NCBI GenBank assembly: GCA_005888635.1 | Contig: VBAW01000016.1 | Span: 62,001 to 126,000 of the forward strand | Reading direction: 5' to 3' | Length of the DNA: 64,000 nucleotides | Origin: Candidatus Bathyarchaeota archaeon | GTDB taxonomy: Archaea; Thermoproteota; Bathyarchaeia; 40CM-2-53-6 | In this document: positions 6,779 through 46,984 of the stretch, in pieces | Position numbering within the stretch: the first letter of the stretch is position 1 | Layout: every line of letters begins with the position of its first letter | The notes under the pieces: model-generated | What the model was told of the DNA's origin: nothing | What the model saw: only the letters and a program-made list of their open reading frames with translations | The model's database searches: none | Translations under genes and position numbers: made by a program

Positions 6779-6788
6779 CTTATGTAAG
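6779..6788 (+). promoter_or_regulatory. candidate TATA box (CTTATGTAAG) for 5S rRNA
   Basis: TATA-like element about 28-37 nt upstream of the predicted 5S 5' end. Confidence 0.4.
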
Positions 6789-6815: not shown

Positions 6816-6964
6816 GGTTGGCGGCCATAGCTGGGAGCTAGGACCCGTACCCATTCCGAAAGAACGAGGAACGCTCGTACCGGAAGCACGGAAGTGAATC
6901 TCCCAGGCGATCTCTGTGGTAGTGTGGTGAGAGATCCCACGCGAAGCTTAGACCGCTGCCAACC
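6816..6964 (+). rRNA. 5S ribosomal RNA, interrupted by a 26-nt BHB-like insertion at 6861-6886
   Basis: Helix I GGTTGGCGGC/GCTGCCAACC, conserved GGCGGCCATAGC, CCCGTACCCATTCCGAA...CACGGAAGTGAA, helix II CTGGGAG/CTCCCAG, GATCTCT/AGAGATC helix; 123 nt once the insertion is removed. Confidence 0.93.
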
Positions 6965-7119: not shown

Positions 7120-8250
7120 TTGCTCGATATTTTCAGCCCTCTAAGCCCTCTAAGCAGCATTTTCAACAATCTAGGCACTGTCACTCAGTTAATCTTCACA
7201 CTCCTGTTTGTCCTTCTCTTCTTCGGATTTGGGCAGAAGCTCCAGATGCGTCAGTACATGTGGGATATTGACAGGGGATTACGACGCCTCGACCTCATTC
7301 GGACCCAGGCGAAGGATCTGGCGTTGAAGACTATCAAGGAGATCGGCAAGCCGACCATGGACCCATTGCCTCAACTAAATGTGCTGATGGAATCATTCTT
7401 GATTACTCCGGTGGACATGGACCCGTCGGGCATTGTGAGCAAGTTCGACCATCTCTTGGATGTTCGTGATGTGAAGTTCAAGGAGGATGTTCAGAAGATG
7501 GCGCCTGGTGCCGACTCCGCTCAGGTCAACAACCTTGAGAACCTTGTCGAGGCTTCTTGGGCCTTGAACACTATTTTCCGGATAATACGCCACTTCTATC
7601 TGTTGGGCAAGAAGACTAACAGTATATTCATCATCATTCAGCTTCAGGCTCTACTTCCTATGATTATGCAGGAGGCTGAAGCCTACTTGGGTGCGGGGCG
7701 AGCGTTTGCTGAGGGGCAGCCGATAGGGGATGGGCTTGGGCCGCTTGTTGCGTCGAAGTTGATGAAGGATAAGGCTCAGAGGAAGGTCGAGAAGGACATC
7801 ATGGTTGCTGAGACCACGATGGAGGATCGGAGAATAATTGCTCTCAAGGCCGAGGGTCCGGGGGGGAATGTTGGAAAACCGGGGGACGCCATACAATCCC
7901 TCCTCCAAGAGAACGATGGAAAGGTCTCAATGATCGTGATGGTGGATGCGGCTCTAAAGTTCGAGGGCGAGACCACGGGTGAGATCAGCGAGGGGATTGG
8001 TGCAGCGATTGGGGGCATTGGGACGGAGCGTTTCAAGATCGAGCAGGAAGCTACGAAACAGAAGATACCGGTCTACGCGGTCATCGTCAAGGAGAGCATT
8101 CTGGAGGCGATTACTCCTATGAAGAAAGAGATACTTGAGGCGGGAGACAAGGTTATCGAGAGGATTAAGAACCTCATCGTGGAACGGAGCAAGCCCGGCG
8201 ACACGGTTATAATCGCCGGAATAGGCAACACCATAGGCATAGGACAGTAG
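7120..8250 (+). CDS. DUF1512-type archaeal membrane protein
   Basis: N-terminal TM then FGQKLQMRQYMWDIDRGLRRLDLIRTQAKDLALKTIKEIGKP typical of DUF1512. Confidence 0.8.
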   Translation: MLDIFSPLSPLSSIFNNLGTVTQLIFTLLFVLLFFGFGQKLQMRQYMWDIDRGLRRLDLIRTQAKDLALKTIKEIGKPTMDPLPQLNVLMESFLITPVDMDPSGIVSKFDHLLDVRDVKFKEDVQKMAPGADSAQVNNLENLVEASWALNTIFRIIRHFYLLGKKTNSIFIIIQLQALLPMIMQEAEAYLGAGRAFAEGQPIGDGLGPLVASKLMKDKAQRKVEKDIMVAETTMEDRRIIALKAEGPGGNVGKPGDAIQSLLQENDGKVSMIVMVDAALKFEGETTGEISEGIGAAIGGIGTERFKIEQEATKQKIPVYAVIVKESILEAITPMKKEILEAGDKVIERIKNLIVERSKPGDTVIIAGIGNTIGIGQ

Positions 8251-46448: not shown

Positions 46449-46566
46449 GCGGCCGTAGTCTAGCCTGGTCTAGGACATAGCATCGGGGCGTCTAGTGGGC
46501 TTCCAACCCAACGACCCGGGAGACCATCAGTTCGGTGGTCCGGGAATTCAAATCCCGGCGGCCGCA
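46449..46566 (+). tRNA. tRNA-Gly(TCC) with two introns at noncanonical positions (46479-46495 and 46521-46546)
   Basis: GCGGCCG/CGGCCGC acceptor, encoded CCA 46567-46569; removing the two segments gives a 75-nt cloverleaf GCGGCCGTAGTCTAGCCTGGTCTAGGACATTGGGCTTCCAACCCAACGACCCGGGTTCAAATCCCGGCGGCCGCA. Confidence 0.93.
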
Positions 46567-46984
46567 CCAAGAAACCGCTCTCGGACCCCGGGCGGTTTCG
46601 GTGGTTTGTGTCGCGAGGGTCAACTGCTTTTGAGATTTTTCGGCGAGGGTCTCTGTCAGGTGAAACTGATCTCGGCGAGTCTTGCAATTCGGGGCGCAGA
46701 ATGGAACCGTCAACCGTTTTTCTGATAGCGGATTAAGCGTAGAGCTCAGCGTGAATATCTCGCGACCTCAAATCGCCTGCCCCGATTCCGGATCCAAGCA
46801 TGATCCGGGCTTGTTCCGTTACAAAAGAAACAATCTGCGAATTTTGATTCTACAAAGACCCAAGTCGGGAAGGATTTACCATTCGTTAATTCCCTCGCAG
46901 AGTCGAGTTTCGTGTCGCGAGGAGCAAGTGCAATTGGAATTTCTTGAATGGTAACGGGGTTTGGTAACCGTGAATGGTAACATT

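Follow-up and report, generated by a model that had tools for sequence, protein, structure and literature searches.

The 5S rRNA gene described here carries 26 additional bases within loop C, and this raises the question of what these bases are and whether they are part of the mature RNA. The gene is located in a stretch of 64,000 nt (the window) of a metagenome-assembled genome of the class Bathyarchaeia (G000), and the GTDB records that share its 5S insertion bear the name Candidatus Bathyarchaeota, the soil isolates BA_7, BA_19 and BA_21 included. Bulge-helix-bulge (BHB) introns are known in tRNA, in 16S and 23S rRNA and in a few mRNAs (PMC4496867; PMC7714728). For archaeal 5S rRNA one insertion site, 104.1-105, was described by Stepanov and Fox, who also noted possible excision of some insertions (PMC7812874). 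Among 645 5S genes of CPR bacteria, none was found in a further survey to contain an insertion of at least 100 bp (PMC11270868). A first-pass annotation of the window had proposed a BHB intron within the 5S gene. This reading is strongly supported by divergent introns at the same site, an exact cut register and intron-less genes in sister genomes, and moreover by long forms bearing a homing endonuclease and by genes for the splicing endonuclease EndA and the ligase RtcB. The 26 bases are therefore regarded with high confidence as an archaeal BHB intron and as a decayed mobile element, although its excision is inferred in the absence of RNA data.

The interrupted 5S rRNA gene and its locus

The 5S gene was identified at positions 6817-6964 of the window, where the entire Rfam model RF00001 was matched with 60.8 bits; a closely related uninterrupted 5S gene (L005) reached 80.8 bits. 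The sequence, coordinates and length of the insertion were found as annotated in the first pass, and the Rfam alignment placed the additional bases (6861-6886) in loop C. Their removal gave the exact loop-C consensus at the junction, as had been predicted, and the junction lies between A46 and C47 in E. coli numbering (our own count). The gene is free-standing, with a beta-propeller protein gene on one side and a DUF1512 gene on the other, and the start of the same DUF1512 gene downstream of the 5S genes L098, L109 and L113 marks the orthologous locus in genus-mates. The sequence GGCTTANNTA is conserved 5′ of the 5S gene in genus-mates, and a promoter role of the TATA-like element is inferred. 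Both exons are intact, as are the TATA-like element and helix I. When the window was scanned with Rfam, only the 5S gene was found and no catalytic intron core. The positions of all features are compiled in Table 1.

Table 1. Features of the 5S rRNA locus in window coordinates
Feature	Position	Strand	Basis or remark
TATA-box-like element, putative promoter, CTTATGTAAG	6779..6788	+	~27-37 nt upstream of 5S start; read from sequence
5S rRNA exon 1, ends ...CCATTCCGAA	6817..6860	+	Rfam RF00001; identical sequence in intron-less relatives
5S helix III, 5′ strand CCGT, outer motif helix	6845..6848	+	Pairs with ACGG 6888-6891; Rfam structure line
Central 4-bp helix, 5′ strand TCCG (exon 1, loop C)	6855..6858	+	All 22 introns with 3 or 4 pairs (4 in 19)
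5′ bulge AA^A, predicted 5′ cut 6860/6861	6859..6861	+	Register test
Predicted BHB mini-intron, 26 nt, AGAACGAGGAACGCTCGTACCGGAAG	6861..6886	+	Missing from 8 uninterrupted genus-mate 5S genes
Inner intron hairpin GAACGAG-GAACG-CTCGTAC	6862..6880	+	Covariation at the first four stem pairs
Central 4-bp helix, 3′ strand CGGA (inside intron)	6881..6884	+	Motif survey, covariation
3′ bulge AG^C, predicted 3′ cut 6886/6887	6885..6887	+	Opposite unpaired ACCCAT 6849-6854
5S rRNA exon 2, starts CACGGAAGTG...	6887..6964	+	Rfam RF00001
DUF1512 protein gene, 3′ of 5S	7120..8250	+	PF07431 and PF23542

Splicing motif, cut register and predicted fold

The helix TCCG/CGGA, the bulges AA^A and AG^C and the inner stem GAACGAG/CTCGTAC with its single A.A mismatch, all of which had been proposed from the window, are present, and in a shuffling test p was ~0.002 for the window's intron alone and ~2e-18 (combined) for ten introns, each standing for one sequence cluster. 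For the motif survey 22 full-length introns were taken in and the cuts were held at the consensus-restoring junction. The 5′ bulge AA^N has 3 nt in every intron, the central helix between loop C and the 3′ end of the intron comprises 4 bp in 19 introns and 3 bp in the other 3, and the inner stem begins at intron base 2 or 3. All 22 introns passed at this register, while only 0-1 passed after both cuts had been shifted jointly by 1-6 nt. With a 1-base inward offset on each side 20/22 still passed the loose 3-of-4 threshold, because such registers slide along the same helices.

A 4-bp helix, 3-nt bulges, cuts after the second bulge nucleotide and a register set by the functional RNA are thus all present, as a BHB motif requires. 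The elements and the register of the proposed splicing motif were thereby upheld, but not a perfect motif: the strict hBHBh′ form is not attained, since helix III (CCGU/ACGG) as outer helix lies 5-6 unpaired nt away on the 5′ strand. In the modelled structure the 3′ cut sits in an asymmetric internal loop, so that the predicted motif is a relaxed BHB. Two-subunit EndA enzymes, found mainly in the TACK group, have been reported to accept relaxed motifs (PMC7714728).

Covariation was tested on 16 distinct motif cores. In the stems 23 cells were altered on both sides as compared to 6.7 in shuffles, with none of 500 shuffles reaching this number, and 91% of the cells were paired, compared to 75% in shuffles and at most 52% when the strands were slid. 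All 4 inner-stem pairs tested have changed on both sides, as is demanded of compensatory change. The predicted fold of the pre-5S RNA holds the native helix III and the exon-intron helix together, and UUCCG is part of loop C and not of helix III. The earlier suggestion that pairing with the intron precludes helix III, and that splicing would hence switch the fold, was consequently rejected. The minimum-energy folds of some short introns (G023, G027, G028, G031, G221 and that of Aenigmatarchaeota) did not contain the complete motif.

Related insertions, homing endonuclease and origin of the mini-intron

Insertions of 17-414 nt at the same 5S site were present in 18 other Bathyarchaeia genomes (260 examined), giving 19/260 with the window's own genome and with G002, the contig of which stops inside the intron, included. 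In the home genus, represented by 18 genomes, the 5S gene at the same locus is uninterrupted in 8 genomes and carries an insertion at exactly this site in 9, with G004 counted both ways, and 2 genomes show no 5S exon. The alignment of related 5S genes that had been called for thus revealed presence and absence at the exact site among sister genomes, and the 8 uninterrupted genes provide intron-less orthologues of the conserved RNA that is restored on removal. The genome G010 is 96% identical to the window's genome in 3.1 kb of flanking sequence and shares its 26 nt without a change, and the intron-bearing 5S gene is unchanged between the two in spite of a flank divergence of ~4%; an assembly error, named beforehand as a possible refutation, was excluded in this manner.

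In other families the insertions measure 17 nt (G021), 20 nt (G023, G028, G031), 28 nt (G018, G221), 31 nt (G084), 35 nt (G027, G037) and 414 nt (G087). A GTDB-wide pattern scan added three Woesearchaeota (28-29 nt) and one Aenigmatarchaeota (38 nt). The insertion is rare there: in sampled genomes, starting genomes included, it occurs in 2/380 of the phylum to which the Woesearchaeota matches belong, with the third known case outside the sample, and in 1/148 of the phylum of the Aenigmatarchaeota match. The insertion bodies are unrelated among several Bathyarchaeia families, Woesearchaeota and Aenigmatarchaeota. Longer introns outside the home genus may escape the pattern, and G087 was detected solely through its protein. 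All genomes compared are metagenome-assembled or unnamed. The scan yielded 17 matches, 5 of which are not introns: L058 and L065 look like chance matches, and the other three, L053, L055 and L062, are bacterial 5S genes (Neglecta, UBA6113 and RUG516) in which loop-C sequence is partially repeated in tandem. The repeats are possibly assembly artefacts.

In genus-mates whose 5S gene had been missed by Rfam, introns were found that measure 248 nt in G014, 330 nt in G001 and 410 nt in both G017 and one copy of G004, all of which have the same ends. The 410-nt introns code for a 142-aa protein (...YIRGFVDGEGW...), the final 11 codons and stop of which are supplied by 5S exon 2 in the genus form. 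Both proteins match Pfam LAGLIDADG_3 (PF14528) with E values of 4e-11 and 7e-13 and with scores of 43.4 and 49 bits, above the cut-off of 22.5, and hence qualify as LAGLIDADG-domain proteins. They are 75% identical between G017 and G004, and for the intronic part only dN is 0.14 and dS 1.15 (dN/dS ~0.13); the ORF is therefore under purifying selection. The 414-nt intron of G087, which belongs to another family, encodes a 47%-identical protein in an ORF that is closed only by a TAG with which the intron ends. The region of the LAGLIDADG motif is gone from the 330- and 248-nt forms. Searches of the PDB with phmmer and the LAGLIDADG protein gave no convincing match, and no Rfam match to a group I or group II intron was obtained in the long-intron loci at E values up to 1. 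Other LAGLIDADG-like matches in ORFs of 671-1560 aa, probably inteins, were left out, and matches in ORFs of 305-322 aa were not counted.

When the first 13 and the last 13 nt of the 410-nt intron are joined, they agree with the window's 26 nt at 25/26 positions (null maximum 18), and the 26-nt intron is therefore a deletion relic. A 36-nt intron is identical to the 410-nt ends at 33/36 positions, and the 56-nt form fits them in the same manner. The mini-introns of other families show no likeness to the long forms beyond the motif and are therefore older relics or independent gains. As a separate observation, the window's locus (L001) and that of the intron-bearing G004 copy (L112) are 89% identical downstream of the 5S gene and 81% upstream, a contrast that could reflect the co-conversion tract of homing. 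The contigs C47 and C59 of G004 (L098 and L112) carry an intron-less 5S gene and one with the 410-nt intron, respectively, with similar upstream flanks, and this bin possibly holds a strain polymorphism for the mobile intron.

Proposed processing, alternative explanations and significance

By computation the insertion, its site, the motif, the covariation, homology and constraint of the ORF, the deletion series and the EndA and RtcB genes were established; transcription is inferred, as are folding into the motif, cleavage by EndA, joining of the exons and liberation of the intron, on the grounds of the motif itself and of what is known about the biochemistry of archaeal introns. According to this scheme, UCCG of loop C in the pre-5S RNA would pair with the 3′ end of the intron, both bulges would be cut by the tRNA-splicing endonuclease EndA, and joining of the exons, with RtcB as the expected ligase, would result in a normal 5S rRNA of ~122 nt, with the intron being discarded, perhaps as a circle. 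For genus-mates with the 410-nt intron, the LAGLIDADG endonuclease presumably cuts intron-less 5S genes, into which the intron would be copied by homing; this activity, cleavage of the intron-less site included, is inferred from homology and constraint. On this reading, deletions in the endonuclease gene then led successively to forms of 330, 248, 56, 36 and 26 nt with the splicing ends being kept.

Genes required for this scheme were searched for. G000 encodes two EndA-family paralogues as well as RtcB, so that both splicing endonuclease and ligase are available in the window's genome. RtcB was not found in 3 of the 14 genomes checked (G028, G084 and G263), one of which, the 97%-complete Bathyarchaeia genome G028, does possess EndA. 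The absence of RtcB from three intron-bearing genomes may be due to incompleteness or to the use of another ligase.

As an alternative to splicing, the hairpin could be kept in the mature 5S rRNA and protrude from the ribosome as an expansion segment. Halococcus and some Clostridia are known to retain such expansions (PMC7812874) and the insertion does fold as a hairpin, yet this explanation is considered very improbable. The site differs, as the first-pass annotation had pointed out for Halococcus morrhuae; the sole archaeal site listed in PMC7812874 is 104.1-105. According to that paper, known inserts are not complementary to the core of the 5S RNA; here every insertion is paired with four bases of loop C, so that this hallmark of expansions is missing in each case. 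Moreover, a 410-nt insertion that encodes an endonuclease at the same site would be hard to fit in the ribosome, and presence or absence between sister genomes is precise.

That the interrupted gene is a dead copy, with the expressed uninterrupted copy absent from the assembly, is thought to be slightly less probable still. The assembly is only ~92% complete, and G004 contains an intron-less and an intron-bearing 5S gene on separate contigs, but the similar upstream flanks of these two suggest a mixed bin in which a single locus is represented by different alleles or strains. The search for a second copy, which might have refuted the intron, found the window's 5S gene as the only one in the 2.18-Mb assembly, and G013, G015, G018, G021 and G028 have a single 5S gene each at a completeness of 93-98%. 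A dead copy would also not be expected to retain intact exons, helix I and TATA-like element, or an intron-bearing 5S gene that is identical in G000 and G010 while the flanks have diverged. A partial duplication or an assembly error within the 5S gene, of the kind represented by the three bacterial tandem repeats from the same pattern scan, can be practically dismissed: the insert is not copied from 5S sequence, it is identical in the independent assembly G010, and homologous longer forms exist. Insertions that are recurring, homologous and covarying exclude an assembly error.

The BHB intron of the 5S gene resembles those in 16S and 23S rRNA of Thermoproteales and Desulfurococcales (PMC4496867) with respect to the junction motif, the highly conserved rRNA site, the existence of homing-endonuclease-coding forms, remnants and small (<50 nt) hairpin introns, and the EndA and RtcB pathway. 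It differs from these in its host, a free-standing 5S rRNA gene, in its occurrence in Bathyarchaeia and DPANN, and in the relaxed 3′ bulge in loop C. Archaeal tRNA introns share the motif, the enzymes and the short length, but reside in another host RNA, and the full-length forms in 5S carry a LAGLIDADG gene. The single-motif 142-aa protein resembles the LAGLIDADG homing endonucleases in its match to PF14528 and is distinguished by being encoded in a 5S intron. With the expansion segments of Halococcus morrhuae and Thermoanaerobacterium 5S (PMC7812874) the extra hairpin in the 5S gene is shared, in contrast to the site, the pairing with the 5S core in BHB register, the absence from sister species, the endonuclease-coding long forms and the expected excision. 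Group I introns of archaeal LSU and SSU rRNA (PMC6125680) likewise combine an rRNA host with a homing endonuclease; in the introns described here no group I core was found, and they are as short as 17 nt.

A known sort of archaeal intron is thus present in a new host RNA, 5S, where it has been encountered several times and also exists as a full-length, mobile form. No description of a 5S rRNA intron was found in the open-access full-text literature searched, subscription papers being outside the scope, and apart from unrelated papers the matches were limited to surveys of other insertions in rRNA; the novelty that the first pass had left to be checked was supported within this limit. BHB introns and homing endonucleases are hereby extended to the last class of rRNA, and EndA is implied to be needed for making 5S rRNA in these archaea, provided that excision, which is inferred, takes place. 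The forms of 248-414 nt explain why Rfam misses the 5S gene in some near-complete archaeal genomes, and within one genus most stages of the homing cycle are represented: empty site, intron with intact endonuclease, decayed intron and mini-intron. It is a rather speculative and unlikely, though not negligible, possibility that introns have from early on occupied the loop-C junction of archaeal 5S rRNA, a site common to at least 3 phyla, and that the mini-intron has become fixed as an obligatory maturation step in many lineages. If true, the mini-intron would be an EndA-dependent control of ribosome assembly and not a passing relic.

In the Rfam scan of G000, 8 of the 12 tRNA genes above the cut-off were 100-136 nt long, suggesting many tRNA introns, and most of the long tRNA genes tested were missed by ARAGORN, as would be predicted if introns are present. 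A tRNA-Gly(UCC)-like gene of ~120 nt at 46449-46571 (+) of the window was missed by ARAGORN and only weakly recognized by Rfam (26 bits). By eye it seemingly contains two introns, one of them in the T arm (CCCGGG^AGACCATCAGTTCGGTGGTCCGGGAA^TTCAAATCCCGG).
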